From: Acidobacteriota bacterium
GTDB taxonomy: Bacteria > Acidobacteriota > Terriglobia > Acidiferrales > UBA7541
DNA length: 59,089 nucleotides
NCBI GenBank assembly: GCA_003223295.1
Contig: QHYM01000115.1
Span: forward strand, 1-59,089
Direction of reading: 5' to 3'
Part shown: in pieces, positions 1 through 9,578 of the stretch
Numbering within the stretch: position 1 is the stretch's first letter
Layout of the letters: each line of letters begins with the position of its first letter
Made by a program: the position numbers and the translations under genes
The notes under the pieces: model-generated
Told to the model about the DNA's origin: nothing
What the model saw: only the letters and a program-made list of their open reading frames with translations
Database searches by the model: none

Positions 1-47
1 CCTCTACCGTGTCAAGGTAGCGCTCTAACCAACTGAGCTACGGGCCT
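1..47 (-). tRNA. tRNA-Val (GAC), 3' end missing
   Basis: Read on the minus strand, positions 47-1 give a 7-nt acceptor strand, the TA at tRNA positions 8-9, a D-arm with GCTC/GAGC stem and AGTTGGTTA loop, and an anticodon arm with CTACC/GGTAG stem and loop TTGACAC. The anticodon is GAC, which reads GUC/GUU valine codons. The variable loop, T-arm and 3' acceptor strand lie beyond the left edge. Confidence 0.9.
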
Positions 48-230
48 GCAATTCATAAAGCTTAACACGGGTGGCGCATCAAACGCAGTGCTCGGCGCCT
101 CCAAGGTATGTGATCAAATTCCAATCCCCAACGCAGTGGCGCTCATCTTTTCGCATCTTTGTACCTTTCACTGAGTTCAAAAGACACACCTAGTCGAAAT
201 TGGTTCTCGTAACCCGCATCACGCGGGAGC

Positions 231-244
231 GTGACGCCCATCAC
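231..244. promoter_or_regulatory. Putative CRP/FNR-family operator upstream of the regulator gene
   Basis: GTGACGCCCATCAC is an inverted repeat of GTGAC and ATCAC arms around 4 bases, with one mismatch between the arms. It fits GTGA-N6-TCAC, the core of CRP-type sites. Two better copies of the same pattern lie on the other side of the regulator gene at 1142-1155 and 1164-1177. It sits 85 bp upstream of the first start codon of the regulator, so autoregulation is a reasonable inference. Confidence 0.5.
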
Positions 245-315
245 AGCCGGCAGACAGTCGATTTCAGTAGAAACGTGCGGATTGCGACCTAGTTGTCTCT
301 ACGAGACGGCTGCCT

Positions 316-1095
316 ATGCCAAACGGGTTTCGTTTTGTGTCCCGTAAAAAAGGAGGTAGACTCCTGGGCAGTGATTTCATGCGAGCCCCCTACGGTCTAG
401 AGATTATTGAGAGCTGCCTGTCTTGCCCTTACCGCGAAGACCGTCTTTTCTGCAGTCTCTCTCCTCCAGCGGTGCAGAAGTTAGCAACCATCACTTCGGC
501 CGCGGCGTATCCGAAGGGAGCGACTCTCTTTCTTGAAGGGCAGTCACCGCGGGGAGTCTTCGTTTTATGCAGCGGCCGGGTCAAGCTCTCCACGTCATCC
601 GCGGATGGGAGAAGCCTCATTCTTAGAATCTCGGAATCCGGGGAAGTTCTGGGCTTGCCCGCTACGGTGACGGGTAAACCCTACGAGCTTACGGCCGACG
701 TAATCGAACCTACTCAGGCTAATTTCATTTCTAGGAAGGATTTTCTCTGCTTCTTGCGTGAGCACGGCGAGGCAGCGCTCCGCGTGGCGCAACATCTCGG
801 TGAAACCTATCATTCGGCGATCGCGGAAATGCGCACCATTGGCCTCTCTCACTCCGCGGCCGAGAAGATGGCGCGCTTCCTGCTGGACCTCTCTGCGAAT
901 CAGGACGAACAAAAGGGCGAGGTCAGGCTCACGCTCACGCTGACGCACGAAGAAATCGCCCAGATGATAGGAGCTTCCCGAGAGACCGTGACTCGGGTGT
1001 TCGCTGATTTCAAGAAAAAACAGCTCTTGCGCGTTACTGGTTCCTCTCTCATCATCGCTAATAGAGCTGGGCTCGAAAAGGTCTTGGGCTCTTAG
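316..1095 (+). CDS. CRP/FNR-family transcription regulator
   Basis: 259 aa. A cyclic-nucleotide-binding-type beta-roll (about residues 50-150), a dimerisation helix (about 150-185), and a C-terminal winged helix with the helix-turn-helix around LTHEEIAQMIGASRETVTR (about 208-226). Cysteines C34, C37 and C46 (CxxC-x8-C) with C85 in the beta-roll could ligate an FNR-like iron-sulfur cluster, making this a candidate oxygen or redox sensor. The recognition helix reads RETVTR, close to the RETVGR of CRP, which in CRP contacts GTGA half-sites; this agrees with the GTGA-N6-TCAC palindromes on both sides of the gene. The start is uncertain: ATG 316 has no clear ribosome site, and AAGGAGGT at about 350 is oddly far from the in-frame ATG at 379. 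It probably controls the cytochrome genes downstream. Confidence 0.88.
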   Translation: MPNGFRFVSRKKGGRLLGSDFMRAPYGLEIIESCLSCPYREDRLFCSLSPPAVQKLATITSAAAYPKGATLFLEGQSPRGVFVLCSGRVKLSTSSADGRSLILRISESGEVLGLPATVTGKPYELTADVIEPTQANFISRKDFLCFLREHGEAALRVAQHLGETYHSAIAEMRTIGLSHSAAEKMARFLLDLSANQDEQKGEVRLTLTLTHEEIAQMIGASRETVTRVFADFKKKQLLRVTGSSLIIANRAGLEKVLGS

Positions 1096-1141
1096 CCCTT
1101 GTTTCTCCTTCCCGGAATTTGCCTCTTCCAAAATTCGCCGC

Positions 1142-1155
1142 GTGACGTCCGTCAC
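1142..1155. promoter_or_regulatory. Putative CRP/FNR operator 1, upstream of the decaheme gene
   Basis: GTGACGTCCGTCAC has perfect GTGAC/GTCAC arms around 4 bases. It lies between the regulator gene and the decaheme cytochrome gene, and its centre is 22 bp from that of the second copy (1164-1177), about two helical turns, so two dimers could bind the same face of the DNA. Confidence 0.6.
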
Positions 1156-1163
1156 ATCAGTGC

Positions 1164-1177
1164 GTGACGCGTGTCAC
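1164..1177. promoter_or_regulatory. Putative CRP/FNR operator 2, upstream of the decaheme gene
   Basis: GTGACGCGTGTCAC again has perfect GTGAC/GTCAC arms with a 4-base spacer. It ends 146 bp before the decaheme start codon. I could not place a convincing -10 element at a standard class I or class II distance from it, so the promoter itself remains uncalled. Confidence 0.6.
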
Positions 1178-1323
1178 CGAGCTTGGCCTTTAGATCAGCA
1201 AGACTTTACCGGTATTTAGGCTGCGTAAGACGAAAGGATCTGAAATGAAGCTACCGAGCCCAGTTCTCTGCCTATCGCGATTGGAACAATGATTTTGATT
1301 CTCGGGTTGGTAAAGGAGGGGAA

Positions 1324-2346
1324 ATGCTCACAAAAATCTCCCGCGCTTCCAGAAGCCCACTCCTCACTCTTCTTCCTTTCTTGGTTTCGTTTGGCGTAGC
1401 CGCCGGGCTGAATGCAAGGCCGCCTGCCCAGGATGCCCCGAAACCACCCACCGAGCAGGAAAAGACTAAGGCTGTAGCACCCTCAGCCGCAGATGGCGAT
1501 TATGTGGGCAGCGAAACCTGCATCACGTGCCATCAGGATCAAGATCATCGCTTCAAGAACACCCCCATGGGCAGAGTGATGGCCCATCCAAGGACTCCCG
1601 AGGAGGCCCGCGGCTGCGAGGCCTGCCATGCGCCGGGCCGGGCACACGTGGAAGCCGGCGGAGGCAAAGAAACGATTCCGATGCGCTTCGGCAAGGAATC
1701 CAAGAACTCCGTAGCGGAGCAAAACGCGGTATGCGAGACCTGCCACACGCGCGGAACGCACCTGTTCTGGAAAGGCAGCCCGCATGAATCGCGGGGAATG
1801 GCCTGCGTTGACTGCCATCAGGTGAAGCAAGTTGTGAATGTGGCGCTGTCCTCCGAGGGCCGCTATAACTCCCCGCTGTCGGACGTCCGAGGATTGAAGA
1901 AATCGCAACCGGAATTGTGCTTACAGTGCCACCAGATGCGGCGCGCCCAGTTGCAGCGCTCGTCGCACATGCCCTACCGCGAAGGAAAGGTGACCTGCAC
2001 GAGCTGCCATAATCCGCATGGCACACCGAATCCTAAGCAGCTTATTCAAAGCACGACCAACGAGAACTGCTTGAGCTGCCACACGGAGCGGCGCGGCCCC
2101 TTCTTGTGGGAACACCCGCCGGTGATGGAAAACTGCGCGAACTGCCATGAACCGCACGGTACCAGCAACCCGCAGTTGCTGAAGACACGCATGCCGCGCG
2201 TGTGTGACTCTTGCCACGTCGCGACGCGACACCCGACCCAAGCCCAGCCCCTTGGTTCCATCAAGAATTTCAATCGCGGCTGCACCAACTGCCATTCCGC
2301 CATCCACGGGTCCAATCACCCGTCTGGCGACAAGTTCCTACGCTAG
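1324..2346 (+). CDS. Periplasmic decaheme c-type cytochrome, DmsE/MtrA type
   Basis: 340 aa with an N-terminal signal peptide (hydrophobic stretch about residues 12-29). Exactly ten CxxCH motifs are visible in order: CITCH, CEACH, CETCH, CVDCH, CLQCH, CTSCH, CLSCH, CANCH, CDSCH, CTNCH. Length and heme number match the MtrA/DmsE/PioA family, a heme wire that sits inside an outer-membrane barrel and passes electrons between the periplasm and the outside. The next gene, 19 bp downstream, encodes the matching barrel. The ribosome site AAAGGAGGGG lies just before the ATG. Two GTGAC-N4-GTCAC palindromes lie upstream. Whether the wire serves reduction of outside acceptors or oxidation of outside donors cannot be read from the sequence. 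Confidence 0.93.
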   Translation: MLTKISRASRSPLLTLLPFLVSFGVAAGLNARPPAQDAPKPPTEQEKTKAVAPSAADGDYVGSETCITCHQDQDHRFKNTPMGRVMAHPRTPEEARGCEACHAPGRAHVEAGGGKETIPMRFGKESKNSVAEQNAVCETCHTRGTHLFWKGSPHESRGMACVDCHQVKQVVNVALSSEGRYNSPLSDVRGLKKSQPELCLQCHQMRRAQLQRSSHMPYREGKVTCTSCHNPHGTPNPKQLIQSTTNENCLSCHTERRGPFLWEHPPVMENCANCHEPHGTSNPQLLKTRMPRVCDSCHVATRHPTQAQPLGSIKNFNRGCTNCHSAIHGSNHPSGDKFLR

Positions 2347-2365
2347 CGAGGGAGGGCGCACGAAC

Positions 2366-4978
2366 ATGAAAAAAGTCCATCGACTCGCGACTCTTGCAGT
2401 TTTTGCGGTTTTGTTGCTCCCCGCCGGCGTGTTGGCCCAGGATAAGACGGAAGAGCACGGCAGCATCGATTTCGGACTCCGCTACGCCTGGGGTGACGTT
2501 TATGGCCGCCCGGATCTTCAGACCGGTCAATGCCTGGGTTGCGGAAGTCCGTTCGATCCCGCCTTGAAAACTTCGAAATTCAACGAGTATCGTGACGTGC
2601 GGAATGGCTTCTATGTGCGCCGCTTCGACGCGAAGTGGGAGCACGTGCTCAACTCGAAGAATAATTACGTCTCCCTGAAATCGCAGAGGACGCTTTACCG
2701 GGACCAGAGTTACCTTGCGACATTCGGCGAGTACGGCAAATTCAAACTCCAATTCCGCTACGATGAGATCCCGCACATTTACAGCGACACCGCGCGCACC
2801 TTGTTTACAGAAACCGCGCCCGGAGTATGGGGCTTCCCAGCAGCGATTCGCTCGGCACTGCAAGCCAGCACTCCCTCCAATCTTCCCTCCCTGCTCGCCG
2901 GAACCGGCGCCAACGCGGGGCAGGGCATCGTGACCGATTTTGATTTCATCACGCCGTCCATCATCCGCAAGGCAGGAACCGCCCTGTTCTCCTACAACCC
3001 GACGGCAAAGTGGAACCTGAATCTCTTGTTCTGGCGTGAGAGCGAAAGAGGCACGCGGCCGCTCGGGCTGATCATGAATCCTAGCCCCAGCGCCAGCGCC
3101 ACGGCCGGCTATGGCGTGGAGCTTCCGGAACCCATCAATTACTTCAACAACAGGCTGCAATTCGGCACCGAATACGGCAACCGCAGCCGGGCTATTCAGA
3201 TCGCCTACATAGGATCTTTCTTGCAGAACAACACGGGCGTCCTGACGTGGGACAATCCCTTTCGTCTCACGAACGAAACGGTTGGCAACCCACTCACTGG
3301 GCGCATGGATTTGTATCCCGACAATAAGGCGCAATACCTGAGTTTTGCGGGCGCGACAAATGTCACCAAGTACATGCGCCTCATGGGGAGCGTCAGCCCG
3401 GGTTGGCTGAGGCAGAACGACGCGTTTCTTCCCTACACCACGAACACAGCGAATGTTACTTGCGGAGACGGAACTCAGGCTTGCACTTCACTTTCCTCGC
3501 TGCCTGCAGCTAGCCTTGGCGGAAGCAAGCAGACTCTGGCCATGAACTTCACGTTAGTAACCACGGCCTGGAAGAGCGTGGAAGCCAAGGCCGCTTACCG
3601 TCACTACGACTATACCAACAACACCCCGGTCCACACGTTCACGCCGGTCGAAGGGGATGCCGGCGGTCCCGTACTGACTCCGACTGATAACACGCCGTTC
3701 AGTTTCAACCGCAAAAACCTGGAATTGACCGGCAACTGGTTCTTCGCCAAGCGCAGTTCGTTCAAGCTCGGCTATGAAGCCGAGTGGATGGATCGGTCGC
3801 AACGCGACGCGTCTCACTCGCTGGAAAACTCTATCGTCAGCGCCTTGGACTATAGCCCGACCAAGAATTGGCTCTTGCGGCTCTCGTACCGCCACTCGGA
3901 TCGCAAACCTGACCTTTATCTGGATGACGTTTCGGAGGAAATTTCCGGCGGCATCCCCGTCGATAGTCCCTTCGCAAGGCGCTTTGACGAAGCCGCCAGG
4001 TTGCGGGACCGCGCCGATGGATTGATTCAGTACAATGCAACCGACAAACTGACCGTGTCGGCTTTCGGCGGAACCCTGCAAGACAATTACAACCAGCCCG
4101 GTGGGTCAAACAACGCCACGCCGCTGAACTTCCTCACCGGCACCACCGCCGCCACCAATCCTTATTATCTCTACGGAGTGCTAAAGGATCTCTCGTACAA
4201 TTGGGGCCTCGACCTCGACTACGCGGTCTTGGCGCAGATGACCGTGTTTGCCGAGTACTCCCATGAGCGCTACCACAAGCGCATGATCACCCGTTACCGC
4301 GCCCCAGAGTCAACTTCGGGGACCGGTGGGTGCGGACCGAACACCCTGGGAACGGCCAACCAAGGGGCCTGTGACACAGCTAACAACGACTGGGAAAGCA
4401 CTTCGCGCGAACTGGTAGACATCACGTCCGCGGGCGTGGACTTCTATTTCGGCAAAAAGGTGTACCTCACAACCTATTACTCGCTATCTGCGGTGAAAGG
4501 CAATGTCTTCTCAAGGTTCCTGGGCGATCCGCTTGGCCATCCCAACCAGCCGCCCGCCGATGATCCAGATCGTTTCATGCTGGTCGGCACAAACGCGGCC
4601 GTGGACTACCCCGAGACCGTCAACCGGACTCACGAAGTTGCCATCATCTTCAAATACAAACTGACGGCCAACCTCACGCCGCGATTCGAGTACCGCTACC
4701 AGCAATGGGATAACAAGGACTACCAGACTTCCCCAATGACACAGTACATGGGGTGCGTAAGCCCGATTCCCAACGCGAATCCCCCAAGCAATTCCGTGCC
4801 GGGCTGCACTACGCCCGTCTTGACCAGCAACACGCCAACACCCGTGGCCGTGCCGAGTTCTTTCTATCCCTACTTTGTGGTTGGTGACACCTCGGCGGCC
4901 CGCTACCTGTTCATGGGGACGGACCAGCCTTCGTACAAGGCTCATACCCTGCTGGCCACGCTGGAGTATCGCTTTTAG
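2366..4978 (+). CDS. MtrB/PioB-type outer-membrane beta-barrel partner of the decaheme cytochrome
   Basis: 870 aa from the ATG at 2366, chosen because GAGGGAGG precedes it and a signal peptide follows (residues 1-24, ending VLAQ); the open frame itself runs further upstream into the cytochrome gene. The rest is rich in alternating, aromatic beta strands and ends in LEYRF, the C-terminal aromatic signature of outer-membrane barrels. A CxxC (C56, C59) lies near the mature N-terminus, a feature reported for MtrB-type porins of metal-respiring bacteria. It is longer than Shewanella MtrB (about 700 aa), suggesting larger loops. The adjacent decaheme gene supports a porin-cytochrome complex. Confidence 0.88.
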   Translation: MKKVHRLATLAVFAVLLLPAGVLAQDKTEEHGSIDFGLRYAWGDVYGRPDLQTGQCLGCGSPFDPALKTSKFNEYRDVRNGFYVRRFDAKWEHVLNSKNNYVSLKSQRTLYRDQSYLATFGEYGKFKLQFRYDEIPHIYSDTARTLFTETAPGVWGFPAAIRSALQASTPSNLPSLLAGTGANAGQGIVTDFDFITPSIIRKAGTALFSYNPTAKWNLNLLFWRESERGTRPLGLIMNPSPSASATAGYGVELPEPINYFNNRLQFGTEYGNRSRAIQIAYIGSFLQNNTGVLTWDNPFRLTNETVGNPLTGRMDLYPDNKAQYLSFAGATNVTKYMRLMGSVSPGWLRQNDAFLPYTTNTANVTCGDGTQACTSLSSLPAASLGGSKQTLAMNFTLVTTAWKSVEAKAAYRHYDYTNNTPVHTFTPVEGDAGGPVLTPTDNTPFSFNRKNLELTGNWFFAKRSSFKLGYEAEWMDRSQRDASHSLENSIVSALDYSPTKNWLLRLSYRHSDRKPDLYLDDVSEEISGGIPVDSPFARRFDEAARLRDRADGLIQYNATDKLTVSAFGGTLQDNYNQPGGSNNATPLNFLTGTTAATNPYYLYGVLKDLSYNWGLDLDYAVLAQMTVFAEYSHERYHKRMITRYRAPESTSGTGGCGPNTLGTANQGACDTANNDWESTSRELVDITSAGVDFYFGKKVYLTTYYSLSAVKGNVFSRFLGDPLGHPNQPPADDPDRFMLVGTNAAVDYPETVNRTHEVAIIFKYKLTANLTPRFEYRYQQWDNKDYQTSPMTQYMGCVSPIPNANPPSNSVPGCTTPVLTSNTPTPVAVPSSFYPYFVVGDTSAARYLFMGTDQPSYKAHTLLATLEYRF

Positions 4979-5130
4979 CGTTGTGGGAGGAGCAAGAATC
5001 GATGCCATGCGCCAGTGAGGCAAGTTGGCGAAAAAATCGCTCTCTGCTCGCCGCGGTTAGATATGATTACGACTTGTAAAACGGTGAGCGGCATTCGATG
5101 CTCGCTGCTATCTCAAACAGGGAGAGGAAC

Positions 5131-5478
5131 ATGCGCAAGACAACCAGTTGGATCGCAGGAATCACAGTCATTGCCGTTGTGCTGGCAACGATCGTTTTCC
5201 TGAGCGCACCGGCAAACGCGGACACCGCTGCTGCCGAAGCAACGTTCAAGGCCAAGTGCGCCGCGTGTCACGGTGCGGATGGCAAGGGCGAAACCGCCAC
5301 GGGCAAGATGATGAAGGTGAAGGATTTTTCGTCCGAGGAAGTTCAGAAGATGACCGATGCGGACTTGACCGCCGCCATCACCGCCGGCAAGGGCAAGATG
5401 CCGCCGTATAAGACTCTCTCGGCGGACCAGGTGAAAGACCTAGTGGCGTATATCCGGGCGTTCGGAAAGAAAAAGTAA
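5131..5478 (+). CDS. Small periplasmic monoheme cytochrome c (class I)
   Basis: 115 aa. A signal peptide (about residues 1-31, ending ANADT) is followed by one heme motif, CAACH, and a downstream KMPPY whose methionine is the likely second heme-iron ligand. The C-terminal helix reads DLVAYIRAF, typical of class I cytochromes c. The start at 5131 is preceded by GGGAGAGG; an upstream in-frame ATG at 5098 lacks one. It lies 152 bp after the barrel gene and 128 bp before the membrane cytochrome gene, so a role as soluble electron shuttle between the NapC-like protein and the decaheme wire is likely (inference). Confidence 0.9.
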   Translation: MRKTTSWIAGITVIAVVLATIVFLSAPANADTAAAEATFKAKCAACHGADGKGETATGKMMKVKDFSSEEVQKMTDADLTAAITAGKGKMPPYKTLSADQVKDLVAYIRAFGKKK

Positions 5479-5482
5479 GCTG

Positions 5483-5533
5483 GCACAGATCAAGAAGCTG
5501 GCGGCGTATATTCGCTCGATGGCCAAAACCCTG
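5483..5533 (+). pseudogene. Relic of a duplicated cytochrome c C-terminal helix
   Basis: Just after the stop of the monoheme cytochrome, this stretch reads AQIKKLAAYIRSMAKT in the frame beginning at 5483, closely matching DQVKDLVAYIRAFGKK at the end of the cytochrome. It has no heme motif or start codon of its own. It looks like the remnant of a second cytochrome c gene or a partial tandem duplication. Confidence 0.45.
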
Positions 5534-5606
5534 AGGAACGAGACAGAACTCGCCGGAATTCGGGAAATGCGCTCAGCTTTCAGAGCAACCCAGAGGAATT
5601 TCGCTG

Positions 5607-6239
5607 ATGACGATGCCCCTTGCTTTGTTGCGGTTGCTGATCCTCACGAGCGTTATCTTGATCGGCGCGCTCATCTGGCGGCCAGGCATTACCGTTTCCC
5701 GCGGCGGCAAGATCCTTGCCTTCCTCATTCTGTTCTGTCTGCCGGTTCTTTGCCTTACCATGGGCTTTTCCAATGAGTTGGAAAGATCAAAAAGCACGGA
5801 GTTCTGCCTGTCGTGCCACATAATGGAGCCGTACGGAAAGAGCCTCCATGTGGACGATCCGTCTTATCTCGCCGCCGCTCACTTCCAGAATCATCGGGTA
5901 CCGGCCGGAGAGGCGTGTTACACCTGCCACACGAACTACACGATGTTCGGCACGTTCAAGGCGAAGATGCATGGTTTGCGCCATGTTTACGTCTATTACT
6001 TCACCACCCCCCCGTCTCCGGAAAAGATCAAACTCTACGAGCCGTATAACAACCGGGAATGTCTGCATTGTCACGAAAGCGCGAGATCATTTGAGCAGGG
6101 CGCAGTGCACAATGCCGACCCGGATTTGCTTCCGGCAGTGAAATCCAACCAGAGATCCTGCATTTCAAGCGGGTGTCATGAAGTGGTGCATAACGTGGCC
6201 ACGCTGGGGAACGTCAAGTTCTGGAATGGAGGCCAGTAA
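5607..6239 (+). CDS. NapC/NirT-type membrane-anchored multiheme cytochrome (quinol dehydrogenase)
   Basis: 210 aa. Two N-terminal hydrophobic helices (about residues 5-24 and 36-53) are followed by a periplasmic domain with three CxxCH motifs (CLSCH, CYTCH, CLHCH) and a fourth, spaced motif CISSGCH (CX4CH). The first motif continues CHIM, the CxxCHxM arrangement that supplies methionine to heme 1 in NrfH/NapC proteins. NapC, NrfH and CymA take electrons from membrane quinols and pass them to periplasmic cytochromes, so this is the likely inner-membrane entry point of the pathway encoded here. Most relatives have one anchor helix; here a second one is predicted. GAGG precedes the ATG. The stop overlaps the start of the next gene (TAATG), suggesting coupled translation. 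Confidence 0.85.
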   Translation: MTMPLALLRLLILTSVILIGALIWRPGITVSRGGKILAFLILFCLPVLCLTMGFSNELERSKSTEFCLSCHIMEPYGKSLHVDDPSYLAAAHFQNHRVPAGEACYTCHTNYTMFGTFKAKMHGLRHVYVYYFTTPPSPEKIKLYEPYNNRECLHCHESARSFEQGAVHNADPDLLPAVKSNQRSCISSGCHEVVHNVATLGNVKFWNGGQ

Positions 6240-6442
6240 TGCTTGTCGGCAATGCCCTCGAACGGCGCATGCAGCTCTCCGGCATACTCCTTATTCTTGG
6301 CCTGCTGGTGGAAACACTCTGCCTGGCGTGGAAGGGACCGTTGGCGTTTCTCGTGTTTGCAGGACTGGGCGGACTGCTGTTCTTCTCTGGAATCGTTCTT
6401 TACCTCCTTTCCCTGGTCTCCGTCCGACACCGCCAAGAATGA
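6239..6442 (+). CDS. Small two-helix membrane protein of the cytochrome locus
   Basis: 67 aa with two hydrophobic segments (about residues 13-31 and 35-58) and a basic C-terminus. It overlaps the NapC-like gene by one base (TAATG), which argues strongly that it is translated and works with that protein, perhaps as an assembly or anchor subunit. I do not recognise the family. Confidence 0.7.
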   Translation: MLVGNALERRMQLSGILLILGLLVETLCLAWKGPLAFLVFAGLGGLLFFSGIVLYLLSLVSVRHRQE

Positions 6443-6555
6443 AGGCCGTATGCCGCGGTCCTGTAGCCCCCCGGCGAGCATGATTCGCGGAACACGTTCT
6501 GGCTGTAGAATGCGCCTTGCATCCCGTAAATTCATGAGGCAGATTCACACTAACA

Positions 6556-7215
6556 GTGAAAATTCAAGTTGACGCAAACCTAAAGAAGAAGTGCCCGCGG
6601 ACGGCACTGGGGTGCCTTACCGCGCGTGTGCGACCCGGCGCCTCTCCGGTGACGCTGCTCGGGGAAATGAATCAGAGAGAACTCGAAATCCAGGAGCTGC
6701 CCTTTCCTCGCGGCGTCTTGGAGGCGCCACAAGTTGAGACGGTCCGCAAAGCTTACAAGGCCCTGGGAAAGGACCCCGCAAGGTATCGTGGTTCAGCAGA
6801 AGCCCTTCTTCGGAGAATCGTGGCTGGCAAAGGCTTCCCGCAAATCAACGTTGTGGTGGATGTTATCAATCTCGTTTCGGTCGAAAGCCGGCTGCCCGTC
6901 GGCCTTTATGACCTGGCGCACGTCGTGGGAGACATCGTGTTTCGTGCTGGACGCGCGGGCGAAACCTATAAGGGCATCGGCAAATATGATTTGAATCTCG
7001 AGGGTTTGCCACTGTTCGCGGATGACGTGGGACCGCACCGCAGCGCGACGAGCGATTCCGAACGCACCATGGTCACCTCGAAAACCGAGGGCATTCTTGC
7101 CGTCATTGTCTCTTTCGGAGGGCCGGAGGACCTCGATCGCTGGACGCAGCGCATGTCTGCTCTGCTGACGCAATTTGCCGCCGCGCAAAATGTGGAGATT
7201 CGTATTGTCCAGTAA
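6556..7215 (+). CDS. B3/B4 domain protein (PheT editing-domain-like)
   Basis: 219 aa from a GTG start. The middle (about residues 60-190), with VVDVINLVSVESRLPVGLYD, resembles the B3/B4 domain of phenylalanyl-tRNA synthetase beta chain, the domain that edits Tyr-tRNA(Phe) in the full enzyme. Free-standing B3/B4 proteins are widespread and of unclear function. It follows the cytochrome genes by 113 bp on the same strand but has no obvious link to them. A complete pheT lies at 26086-28188. Confidence 0.75.
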   Translation: MKIQVDANLKKKCPRTALGCLTARVRPGASPVTLLGEMNQRELEIQELPFPRGVLEAPQVETVRKAYKALGKDPARYRGSAEALLRRIVAGKGFPQINVVVDVINLVSVESRLPVGLYDLAHVVGDIVFRAGRAGETYKGIGKYDLNLEGLPLFADDVGPHRSATSDSERTMVTSKTEGILAVIVSFGGPEDLDRWTQRMSALLTQFAAAQNVEIRIVQ

Positions 7216-7441
7216 ACACGCGCCAACGCAATAAAACGGGCTCCAATTCCCACCAACAGACTGTGTCGGTTTCATTTTCCTACCAAAACCCCCAATCGCT
7301 GGGCGAAGGACAGTAGCATTTCCGTCACAGAATCCTCGCAGTTCCATTGCTTGCAAACAGTTTTGCGCGGGACCATGAGGATGGTGGCCTATTTCCCTCT
7401 CGGGTTTGCGCCTCGACCCGCGGGGAAGAGCGAAGACAAGC

Positions 7442-8206
7442 ATGTCGACCCTGAATCGCGCGGAATTGGACCGGCTCGAAAAGCGTGAGCTGCAGCTCAC
7501 CATCCTGGCCGCGGTGTTTGTGCTTGTGCTCGCCGGCGGCCTGACGGCGTTCATGTATCCGCTGGTTTTCCTCCATCCCGTGGGCAACAAGTGGACTCTG
7601 CGCGTGGCGTTTTTCGGCTTTTGCGGACTAACGCTGCTGTTTGTCGGCTACCTCCTGGAGCGGCAGCGCACGGTGCGCCAGTTGAAGCAGCAACTGCTGG
7701 CGGAGCTGGAGCGCAACGTGACGTTGCAGCATCAGGCCAGCGTGGATTTGCTGCACTCCATGCCGGACCAGAATTATTTTTGGGACCGTCTGACCATGGA
7801 ATTCCGCCGGGCCATGACCATGCAGAAAACACTTTCGCTGCTGCTGCTAAAAGGCAAGGCTGCCGCGGGCTCAGGGAAGCTGAACGAGGACGCCGACGCC
7901 GCGTGGAGCGATGCGGCAAAAGCGATGTCCCGCAAGCTGCGGCCCACGGATTCCATTTACCGGCTCGGACCTGACATTTTCGCGCTGGTCCTGCCGGAAA
8001 CGGATGCGTTGAATGCGAAGCGCGTTGCTGTTCGTCTGCAGGAAGAGCTGCAAGACGTCCGAACGAAGTACGGCAAAGCGTTTGACATCACCACGCACAA
8101 CTACCCACAGGATGCTCAGAGCGCTCACGAGTTGGAAGACATCGTGAAGTCGCTGCTTCCCCAGCAGGAAGAGTGGGAAGCTCCCGTTCCCGCCGAAGCG
8201 AAGTAG
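7442..8206 (+). CDS. Membrane protein with degenerate GGDEF-like domain
   Basis: 254 aa from ATG 7442; an upstream in-frame TTG at 7406 is less likely. Two transmembrane helices (about residues 16-37 and 49-66) flank a short loop, then a coiled region and a domain resembling diguanylate cyclase. The signature loop reads RLGPDIF where active enzymes have R-x-G-G-D/E-E-F, so two of the key positions are altered and cyclic-di-GMP synthesis is unlikely. It may bind nucleotide or act as a scaffold. It stands alone, 226 bp from the gene before it. Confidence 0.65.
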   Translation: MSTLNRAELDRLEKRELQLTILAAVFVLVLAGGLTAFMYPLVFLHPVGNKWTLRVAFFGFCGLTLLFVGYLLERQRTVRQLKQQLLAELERNVTLQHQASVDLLHSMPDQNYFWDRLTMEFRRAMTMQKTLSLLLLKGKAAAGSGKLNEDADAAWSDAAKAMSRKLRPTDSIYRLGPDIFALVLPETDALNAKRVAVRLQEELQDVRTKYGKAFDITTHNYPQDAQSAHELEDIVKSLLPQQEEWEAPVPAEAK

Positions 8207-8264
8207 AAGGCTCGTAGCGCTCTTTCGATCCCTCCAACTCCAGCTTGTAACTCTGAGTGCGTGT

Positions 8265-8362
8265 CATCCTGAGCGAAGGATCTCAACTAGCGCTCGGCTC
8301 ATTGCTTGAGATCGCTTGAGATTCTTCGCCCATCCTCTTCGGATGCGCTCAGAATGACAACC
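8265..8362. repeat. Dispersed GTCATCCTGAGC-type repeat
   Basis: Intergenic DNA containing GTCATCCTGAGCGAAGGATC and, about 60 bp on, the near-inverted GATGCGCTCAGAATGACAAC, so the ends can pair around a central section with two copies of CTTGAGAT. Related sequences occur at about 10310-10365 and 51661-51715. It lies between two genes and after the stop of the GGDEF-like gene. Confidence 0.55.
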
Positions 8363-8393
8363 TTTTCAGCCTATCGCCAAGTTTCAGCAAGCA

Positions 8394-9578
8394 TCAGTCA
8401 AGCGCATGCTTTAAGTCGTCGATCAAATCTTCTTTGTCTTCCAGGCCCATGGAGACGCGAACAGTGCCCGGGCTGACGCCGGCGCGGCGCAATTCTTCGT
8501 CACTCATGTTGTAGTGCGAGCTGTAGGCGGGCAGAATGACGAGCGACTCGACGCCGCCGAGACTCGCCGCCAGCAGAAACAGACGCACGCGATCGCAGAA
8601 GCGCCGCGCGGCAGGCAAACCACCCTTCATATCAAACGCGAGCATCGAACCGAATCCACGCATCTGTTTGGCAGCAAGTTGGTGATCGGGATGGGACTGC
8701 AATCCGGGATAGTGCACGCGCTCGACTTTCGGATGCCTTTCCAAAAATGTTGCGACGGTCATGGCATTCTCGCACTGCCGCTGGACGCGCACGCCGAGCG
8801 TCTTGACGCCGCGAATAAGAAGGTACGCCGCGCCGGGATCCATGGACCCGCCAAGATAAATGATCATGTGGCGCACTTTGTCCATCCACTCTTCGTTGCC
8901 GACGGAAACTCCCGCGATGATGTCCGAATGGCCGGCGAGGGCTTTCGTGGCGCTGTGCACGACCATGTCGTAGCCCAGCGCGATGGGGTTCTGCAACACG
9001 GGCGTGGCAAAGGTGTTGTCGATGAGGGAGACGAGCTTGTGTTTCTTGGCGAAGGCTACGGCTTTTTCAATGTCCACGAGGCGCAGAGTGGGATTCGTGG
9101 GCGTCTCGACATAGAGGGCCTTGGTGCGCGGCGTGACAAGTTTCTCGACGCCGCAGAGGTCGGGGCCCACGTGGTGAACGGTAATGCCCATGTTGGGAAA
9201 AACGTCGCGCATCAGCCTGTAGGTGCCGCCGTAAAGCTGCGCGGTGGAGATGAGCTCGTCGCCAGCTTTCAGCGCCGCTAGGAGCGAGTGGGAAATGGCG
9301 GCCATGCCGGAGGCGGCGACGACGGCGGCTTCCGCGCCTTCGAGCGCGGCGATTTTCTTTTCCGCGACGCTTAGAGTGGGATTGCCGTAGCGCGTATAGA
9401 TGTAGGCCTTGTTCTTCCCTTCCGCCCACTCCTTCATTTCTTCCGTGTTGGAGAAAGTGAACGTGGAAGAGCGAATGATCTCCGTCACGATGGGGCCGTT
9501 GACGCCATAGCGATCGGGCTCGCCGCCGTGAATCGCTTTTGTTTGTGGACCGAGGCTGGACTGTTTTCCGGTTTTCAT
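8394..9578 (-). CDS. Trans-sulfuration PLP enzyme (cystathionine gamma-synthase / gamma-lyase / methionine gamma-lyase family)
   Basis: 394 aa. Cys/Met-metabolism PLP fold: the N-terminal TKAIHGGEPDRYG, YTRYGNPT (phosphate and active-site loop from the partner subunit), and the PLP-binding lysine in HSATKALAGHSD (about residue 208). The start at 9578 was chosen because family members begin shortly before the TKAIH motif; an open frame continues 67 codons upstream through low-complexity DNA. Family members interconvert cysteine, homocysteine and methionine precursors; which reaction is catalysed cannot be told by eye. No SAM riboswitch is visible upstream, but a G-rich tract with G-quadruplex potential is. 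Confidence 0.88.
   Translation of the reverse strand: MKTGKQSSLGPQTKAIHGGEPDRYGVNGPIVTEIIRSSTFTFSNTEEMKEWAEGKNKAYIYTRYGNPTLSVAEKKIAALEGAEAAVVAASGMAAISHSLLAALKAGDELISTAQLYGGTYRLMRDVFPNMGITVHHVGPDLCGVEKLVTPRTKALYVETPTNPTLRLVDIEKAVAFAKKHKLVSLIDNTFATPVLQNPIALGYDMVVHSATKALAGHSDIIAGVSVGNEEWMDKVRHMIIYLGGSMDPGAAYLLIRGVKTLGVRVQRQCENAMTVATFLERHPKVERVHYPGLQSHPDHQLAAKQMRGFGSMLAFDMKGGLPAARRFCDRVRLFLLAASLGGVESLVILPAYSSHYNMSDEELRRAGVSPGTVRVSMGLEDKEDLIDDLKHALD

Follow-up and report, generated by a model that had tools for sequence, protein, structure and literature searches.

A 59,089-bp contig of an Acidobacteriota draft genome (assembly GCA_003223295.1, contig QHYM01000115.1; numbered C315 here and, at its full length, called the window) carries near its first base genes for a decaheme cytochrome and an outer-membrane barrel, followed by genes for a monoheme cytochrome c, a membrane cytochrome and a small membrane protein. 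The locus raises the question of whether such a set can link the quinone pool to the outside of the cell when no surface cytochrome accompanies it, and of how its parts came to stand together. A preliminary description, made from the letters of the window, had proposed a quinone-linked conduit across the outer membrane of an acidobacterium without MtrC, a proposal that protein families, barrel fold and a search of the genome now support. We are largely confident that positions 136-6442, taken as a whole, are best explained as a minimal trans-envelope electron conduit that was built as a mosaic, probably works outward and would be switched by a regulator.

Soil acidobacteria are abundant and mostly uncultured, and their anoxic respiration is poorly known. 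A 2013 paper already noted decaheme genes of the MtrA/DmsE type in Acidobacteria (PMC3669403), a porin-cytochrome complex was reported in Holophaga in 2020 (PMC7399161), and MtrCAB was reported in Acidobacteriia in 2022, without a quinone oxidoreductase nearby (PMC8805035). A 2018 survey listed 0 CymA and 19 ImcH homologues for Acidobacteria (PMC6295460); genes of the NNT4 type, introduced below, were found here in 48 of the 151 genomes of relatives searched, the window's own genome being counted among the 151.

The host genome is a 6.03-Mb draft in 481 contigs, 95.2% complete with 4.49% contamination, and base 1 of the window is a contig end. The features of the locus, which fills a slot between a tRNA-Val(GAC) and a B3/4-domain gene, are the following:

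1..47, - strand: tRNA-Val(GAC), 5' part, truncated where the contig begins; forms the slot's left border (96% by blastn to the tRNA-Val(gac) of locus L176, which is complete)
136..1177, + strand: regulator block, comprising regulator gene, promoter and paired operators (blastn, five loci)
231..244, no strand: single operator GTGAC-N4-ATCAC, 5' of the regulator gene (same position before regulator homologues)
316..1095, + strand: CRP/FNR-family regulator with four conserved cysteines (34, 37, 46, 85) (HTH_Crp_2, cNMP_binding)
1142..1155, no strand: first of the paired operators, GTGACGTCCGTCAC (palindrome)
1164..1177, no strand: second operator of the pair, GTGACGCGTGTCAC, 22 bp after the first (palindrome)
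1324..2346, + strand: A1, secreted decaheme cytochrome, MtrA/DmsE family, 340 amino acids (TIGR03508; 6r2q_A; ten CxxCH)
2366..4978, + strand: B1, outer-membrane barrel, MtrB/PioB family, 870 amino acids, C-terminal Phe (PF11854; model; 6r2q_B)
5131..5478, + strand: c, exported monoheme cytochrome c, likely periplasmic shuttle (PF13442)
5607..6239, + strand: NNT4, membrane-anchored, putatively tetraheme NapC/NirT-type cytochrome, 210 amino acids, fourth motif CX4CH (PF03264)
6239..6442, + strand: tm, small membrane protein, 67 amino acids, directly 3' of NNT4, no named family (conserved partner)
6556..7215, + strand: B3/4-domain gene, right border of the slot (PF03483; slot survey)
7442..8206, + strand: GGDEF gene, right flank common to genomes G008, G018 and G025 (PF00990)

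ARAGORN found no complete tRNA in the window, and the partial tRNA at 1-47 is based on blastn. The five genes from A1 to tm, all placed on one strand in the preliminary description, are confirmed in position, lie on the + strand and are intact frames.

The Components of the Conduit

The 340-residue secreted protein A1 does contain ten CxxCH motifs, as had been read earlier, and scores 241 bits against TIGR03508, the model of the DmsE family (cut-off 192). Among solved chains its sole strong match was 6r2q_A (E 3.8e-58), which belongs to the entry 'Structure of the Mtr complex'; its molecule name in the PDB table is odd, and we take the chain to be MtrA. By these matches A1 is an MtrA/DmsE-family cytochrome. 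The barrel B1 scores 268 bits against PF11854 (cut-off 23) and falls slightly under the cut-off of TIGR03509 (228 vs. 240), while a PDB search with its sequence alone gave no match. Its AlphaFold2 model, calculated with 16 homologues, has a mean predicted local distance difference test score (pLDDT) of 66 and 26 strands in its element list, the number also given for PioB, MtoB and MtrB (PMC10654088). The best fold match of the model was 6r2q_B (E 3.1e-33; Z 20.3, root-mean-square deviation 3.2 Å, 619/649 residues), with the next barrel at 16.6, so that modelling as an unrelated transporter, the outcome that would have spoken against the proposal, did not occur, and B1 is modelled as an MtrB/PioB-family barrel matching the solved MtrB. 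The length of 870 residues and the C-terminal Phe given in the preliminary description are correct, whereas the CxxC that it had singled out is shared with locus L009 but absent from the consensus of 17 homologues, and was hence rejected as a family mark.

The monoheme cytochrome c, the NapC/NirT-type membrane cytochrome and the small membrane protein of the preliminary description are likewise all present. The protein c matches PF13442 at 55.7 bits, and NNT4 matches PF03264 at 46.1 bits (cut-off 24.1), with one weak row in the PDB. Its heme motifs are three CxxCH and one CX4CH, the latter found in 21 of 22 aligned sequences. No Pfam or NCBIfam family matched tm, but all 21 further NNT4 loci that were examined have a relative of tm directly 3' of NNT4 (identity 30-74%, E at most 4e-6), which makes it a constant partner of NNT4. 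The scores above cut-off for TIGR03508, PF11854 and PF03264 exclude chance for the identities of the decaheme protein, the barrel and the NapC/NirT protein; in the whole draft genome PF11854 is exceeded by the window barrel only and PF03264 by the window NapC/NirT gene only.

The absence of an MtrC/OmcA-like gene, noted before for the window, extends to the whole 95%-complete draft genome as far as the two families PF22113 and PF09699 can tell, TIGR03507 not having been run on the genome. PF22113 (MtrC domains) and PF09699 (paired CXXCH) were above their cut-offs in the A1 gene only, and a ten-haem gene on contig C411 stayed under both. Other locus cytochromes of relatives that were tested, with 9, 11 and 19 haem motifs, lie well above the PF09699 cut-off, hence close copies of them in this genome should have shown. 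The C411 region (L076:1483-9393), in which a 462-residue protein with ten CxxCH stands behind large frames and a 471-residue protein with four CxxCH lies nearby, is another multihaem system of this genome.

Two Families of A-B Pairs

The window decaheme protein (P0001) was matched at E 1e-30 or better in 82 of the 151 genomes, its own included, and most matches were of two kinds, with 53-88% identity to it (type 1, to which the window belongs) or roughly 33-45% (type 2). For the trees, seven repeat loci (L161, L163-L168) were left out, after which 56 of 69 A rows and 49 of 55 B rows were kept, the rest being dropped by hand as near-duplicates or remote. In the A tree type 1 shares a clade with rows from Manganitrophus, which are the nearest from outside the phylum, and adjoins Shewanella rows, while type 2 is a separate clade of 23 rows. 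The barrels of the B tree split as the A proteins do; A and B hence travel together, and this common split supports the view that they would form one complex, the model being of single chains. Some type-1 pairs (L162, L163, L169, L021) are accompanied by a protein of 17 to 19 haems, in L021 with an MtrC-like domain (PF22113, 57 bits), and this protein may be a surface partner of those pairs.

Three type-2 barrels were scanned (L142:4767-7466, L141:5998-8817 and L222:10562-13150). None matched Pfam at E 0.01; NCBIfam gave no match for two of them and for L222 one weak row, GSU2204, at 21.7 bits against a cut-off of 350, a family to which B1 is likewise weakly similar (29.6 bits). Comparison of the B1 and B2 profiles with hhalign returned a probability of 53% and an E of 1e-4 over most of their length. 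On these comparisons a distant kinship of the two barrel families is likely, and the stronger statement that they are clearly one family was not upheld, given that probability and the weakness of the shared GSU2204 match. The type-2 barrels are probably a family of conduit barrels of about 860 residues that annotation misses, and surveys made with the MtrB model would undercount conduits, because the family models do not call these barrels.

That A-B works, in the manner of DmsEF, for a molybdopterin reductase outside the cell that uses a soluble acceptor, and not for minerals, is very improbable. The decaheme model matched by A1 is named for the DmsE family, but that name also covers MtrA (6r2q_A). 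In L011 a molybdopterin oxidoreductase gene (L011:1-2091, the contig beginning inside it) lies directly before a type-1 A-B pair and matches PF00384 at 118 bits, its best NCBIfam row being thiosulfate reductase PhsA at 340 bits against a cut-off of 694, so that a dedicated extracellular reductase is possible there. However, L011 is the only relative in which a gene was tested for this, and beside the A-B pair of the window no such gene was recognised on reading through the window's frames, of which the majority were not scanned.

Mosaic Structure of the Slot at tRNA-Val

By blastn the window falls into segments with different nearest matches. Positions 1-88 match the tRNA flanks of relatives, 136-1177 the regulator block of other loci, 1456-4978 the A1-B1 pair of L009 (77% over 3,535 bp) and 5205-8999 locus L142, in five pieces. 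The regulator block is 78.6% identical over 1,044 bp to that of L211 (genome G025); matches to L211, L212, L213 and L217 reach 71.6-78.6% over about 1,040 bp and all end at 1177, the last base of the second operator, while that to L214 (76.7%) ends at 1170. Judged by these sequence matches, the block is imported.

The usual setting of NNT4 is behind type-2 pairs, mostly in the order A2-B2-c-NNT4-tm (L141, L142, L146-L150, L152-L156, L158); in the type-2/NNT4 loci L151 and L157 c was not called. This linkage is biased upwards, because type-2 loci were mostly chosen by an NNT4 hit. No NNT4 was found in the 21 other type-1 loci compared, some of them cut by contig ends. Behind their type-1 pairs lie genes for c, Rieske, cytochrome b and 9-haem proteins (L016, L037, L162) or c together with a multihaem-cytochrome-b gene (L015, L019); in other loci, L010, L011 and L025 among them, no gene was recognised there. 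Among the loci compared, a type-1 pair with c-NNT4-tm thus occurs in the window alone: the expectation that gene order would be kept in relatives is borne out for A-B, whereas a conserved order of all five genes is ruled out, A1-B1 followed by this NapC/NirT gene being seen only here.

The gene trees conflict in the same way. The NNT4 tree (20 rows) and the c tree (26 rows) both unite the window with L141 and L142 (support 99/96 and 97/96, respectively). Approximately unbiased (AU) tests with 13 or 20 rows rejected holding these three together for A (p-AU 1.1e-5) and for B (3.4e-36), and the type-2 pair of L141 also differs from that of L142 (A, p 1.6e-5; B, p 5e-170). One c-NNT4 lineage is therefore wired to three different A-B pairs. 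Divergence from the compared relatives is highest at third codon positions in A, B, c, the NapC/NirT gene and the regulator, the pattern expected for genes under selection.

The borders of the slot recur: the same tRNA stands left of the A gene in L009, L023, L141, L142, L162 and L176, with a B3/4-domain gene to the right. For a survey of the slot 20 stretches were retrieved. It covered 19 genomes of the genus, of which G006 and G033 were set aside for a tRNA-Val in opposite orientation, leaving 17, while G012, G020, G032, G034 and G035, without visible tRNA-Val, were not counted. Four of the 17 slots hold full conduits (the window, G008, G014 and G010, the last over 18.7 kb of mostly cytochrome genes). 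Three hold stumps, namely the start of an A gene closest to type 2 (G018), the end of a type-1 B gene (G025) and the last codons of a type-2 B gene with c (G027). One has c-c-NNT6 (G031), four have a tryptophanase-family gene, alone in three and as remnants in one, and in the remaining five nothing fills the gap, which measures 80 to 339 bp. The tryptophanase-family gene recurs in the conduit slot of L141, L265, L266, L270 and L273, with a product of about 452 residues that is 86-90% identical to that of L141.

The tree of the B3/4 gene places the window with G025 and G031 (93/78), within a six-genome clade (100/98) that includes G018, and since these neighbours differ in their slots, slot content changes between near relatives. 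The locus is, on the sequence comparisons, a mosaic in a fixed slot, and how it is built is the new point. A wider proposal is evenly poised: the slot would be an exchange site for conduits in the genus, at which whole A-B wires of at least two families, one of them with barrels under every Pfam and NCBIfam cut-off, are swapped as pairs and the periplasmic and quinone-side parts stay, and one four-cysteine CRP/FNR-type regulator with 22-bp-spaced operators would move as a block and could control either MtrAB or monohaem-porin conduits.

It is unlikely, though worth weighing, that several A-B pairs have long been resident in this lineage and that local rearrangements together with differential loss produced the mosaic, without exchange between genomes. 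L225 has two type-2 A-B pairs around one c-NNT4 set, L020 has two different A-B pairs side by side, and the stumps indicate that loss is common. On the other hand, ancestors would have had to keep three or more kinds of A-B pair at one small slot; the closest relatives in the B3/4 tree hold a B1 stump or c-c-NNT6, and in the wider clade of six genomes the slot is empty or has an A2-like stump. In four of five comparisons, moreover, the match of the regulator block stops at the final base of an operator. The two pairs of L020 were also considered as an intermediate between type 2 and type 1 and rejected as such, the first A falling near the Shewanella rows, outside type 2.

A chimeric contig or mixed-strain assembly would be an artefactual source of the same pattern, and with 481 contigs, 4.49% contamination and a contig end at base 1 it had to be weighed. 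The contig, however, spans the slot from left to right border, so that two joins inside one slot would be needed; its segments are closely matched in members of the same genus, and a regulator gene adjoins a type-1 A gene also in L017, L021 and L169. An artefact is therefore highly improbable.

The Regulator Block and Its Operators

Cysteines 34, 37, 46 and 85 of the regulator are present in 37 of 38 regulator sequences, and the exception, L225, lacks all four; kept or lost together, they would be joint ligands of a metal cluster. Their spacing presumably differs from that of Escherichia coli FNR, and we take the recognition helix, SRETVTR, to be of the CRP type. Two tandem regulator genes stand before the A gene in L017, L021 and L169; the second of them in L017 and L021 matches only about residues 32-180 of the window regulator and is perhaps without a DNA-binding region.

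In 72 loci (1.04 Mb) we counted 91 copies of the palindrome GTGAY-N4-RTCAC, where nine control palindromes gave 0 to 7; the count is enriched by choice, 20 of the loci having been taken mostly as regulator carriers. When operators lie 14-60 bp apart, their spacing is exactly 22 bp in 20 of 21 pairs. A site was found in 17 of 48 regions before MtrA-type genes, where each of 11 control palindromes gave 0/48. Sites are more frequent beside a regulator gene (6/8) than without one (11/40; Fisher p 0.017), L225 being scored as without regulator by its second A gene, whereas its first A gene has one. Paired operators were also observed near other genes (L211:543-578; L218:5667-5702, just before a universal-stress-protein gene), which suggests a regulon wider than conduits. 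A large regulon in the window's own genome was considered and rejected: it has 12 perfect sites against 3 for the control, but the pair in the window accounts for two of the 12, and of the remaining ten all but one fall within called frames.

Another operon stands beside the regulator in G025, G011, G017, G013, G008 and G018. Its first gene encodes a protein of ~485-490 residues with one N-terminal haem motif, and Rieske- and/or cytochrome-b-like genes follow where the stretch is long enough. This monoheme-porin-like protein, with one CxxCH, matched no Pfam or NCBIfam family; we take its N-terminus to resemble Cyc2. Of the 36 genomes of the genus that were searched for this gene, 14 have it, one of them by a weak match; in the window's genome it was not found. 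Besides the monoheme protein, L211:7717-13132 (and likewise L212, L213, L217 and L228) encodes proteins of cupredoxin-like and of flavin/4Fe-4S type as well as Rieske and cytochrome b, and a phosphoketolase gene lies upstream of the regulator in L211.

Proposed Electron Path and Direction

In the mechanism that we propose, NNT4, together with tm, would exchange electrons with the quinone pool, c would ferry them through the periplasm (NNT4 to c to A1), and A1, seated inside the 26-strand barrel B1, would expose its outer heme directly to the acceptor, with no surface cytochrome. The usual flow would be outward, and the on-switch would be the four-cysteine CRP/FNR-type regulator, which would act at low oxygen by way of the paired operators. 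The locus would have been assembled by placing a type-1 A-B pair and the regulator block in the slot, ahead of a resident c-NNT4-tm set.

Outward flow is somewhat favoured, because of the FNR-like regulator, the phosphoketolase and stress-protein genes near it in relatives, and the missing RuBisCO. An inward conduit, in which a donor outside the cell, such as Fe(II) or Mn(II), would supply electrons to A1-B1, to be handed on by c and NNT4 to the quinone or an oxidase, as proposed for Mto and Pio, is possible but rather doubtful. It draws on the likeness to the Mto cluster, whose parts list is identical (PMC13390432) and whose pathway, in which the inner-membrane tetraheme ImoA and MtoA both interact with the monoheme PmcA, runs inward (PMC13390432). 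It also draws on the affinity of A1 to Manganitrophus, reported as Mn(II)-oxidising chemolithoautotrophs (PMC9040806), on the monoheme-porin-like gene driven by the same regulator block in relatives, on the lack of a detected surface cytochrome and on three haem-copper oxidase genes in the genome. Against it, no RuBisCO large chain was found in the genome, other CO2 pathways not having been searched, and the four-cysteine FNR-like regulator and the phosphoketolase beside its homologues suggest low-oxygen control.

Several points weigh against the outward, regulator-switched mosaic conduit as a whole. NNT4 lies far under the NCBIfam equivalog cut-offs of NapC/NirT and NrfH, and the barrel model has a mean pLDDT of 66. 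The operator is not strictly tied to the regulator, as 11 of 40 A genes counted as without a regulator have a site and two of eight with one have none. What looks like exchange could in part reflect several old A-B pairs that were inherited and then differentially lost. The assembly is a 481-contig draft in which the window begins at a contig end, and the reading is computational throughout.

Relation to Known Systems

PioAB of Rhodopseudomonas palustris has, to our knowledge, no MtrC. It is an A-B conduit like that of the window and is required for electron uptake (PMC8805035); its PioC is a high-potential iron-sulfur protein (PMC10654088), whereas the window uses c-type cytochromes instead. 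The Mto cluster of Sideroxydans lithotrophicus ES-1 (MtoA, MtoB, MtoD, PmcA, ImoA) likewise unites a decaheme protein, a barrel, monoheme cytochrome(s) and an inner-membrane tetraheme cytochrome, and no MtrC-type gene is named for that cluster (PMC13390432). Compared by parts list only, the window differs from it in having one monoheme cytochrome and not two, a CX4CH motif in NNT4, tm and the regulator block. The PioAB/MtoAB kind suggested in the preliminary description is thus supported in anatomy, while its idea of an undescribed system is not borne out in kind, since the Mto cluster has the same parts (PMC13390432) and the conduit itself is therefore of a known kind.

With MtrCAB of Shewanella, which is fed by the tetraheme NapC/NirT quinol cytochrome CymA (PMC6295460, PMC8805035), the locus shares an A1 that matches chain A and a B1 that models as chain B of 6r2q, but in the window genome no MtrC/OmcA-type surface cytochrome was detected. 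MtrCAB Group 5 of Acidobacteriia belongs to the same phylum and has the MtrAB core; unlike the window, which lacks MtrC and has NNT4 in the set, Group 5 is reported to have MtrC and a periplasmic tetraheme cytochrome, with no putative quinone oxidoreductase near the genes (Baker et al., 2022, PMC8805035). The same source describes the MtrAB core as relatively conserved and the support systems as variable (PMC8805035), whereas at this slot A-B changes and c-NNT4-tm stays. Descriptions of the CbcL and ImcH types (PMC6295460) fit some type-1 loci of relatives, with a multihaem and cytochrome b561 protein and a NapC/NirT protein of five to six CxxCH, respectively; the window has neither.

The novelty lies in the exchange of A-B, in the slot's fixed position at tRNA-Val, in the import of the regulator block together with its operators and in a second family of barrels. 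Among open-licence papers, screened by title and start of abstract, none dealt with a second barrel family or with MtrAB exchange at a fixed slot, which is weak evidence of absence.

Significance

Three things deserve to be followed up, namely the slot with its exchanges, the regulator block that moves and the barrels left uncalled. Barrels of about 860 residues that are paired with MtrA-type cytochromes escape the family models, with the consequence for MtrB-based counts of conduits given above. If the proposed reading is true, the MtrA-MtrB wire would be a self-contained plug-in, as the same monoheme and quinone cytochromes would feed decahemes that are about 36-43% identical, and an old question would become testable, namely whether substrate and direction are set by the A-B pair or by its partners.

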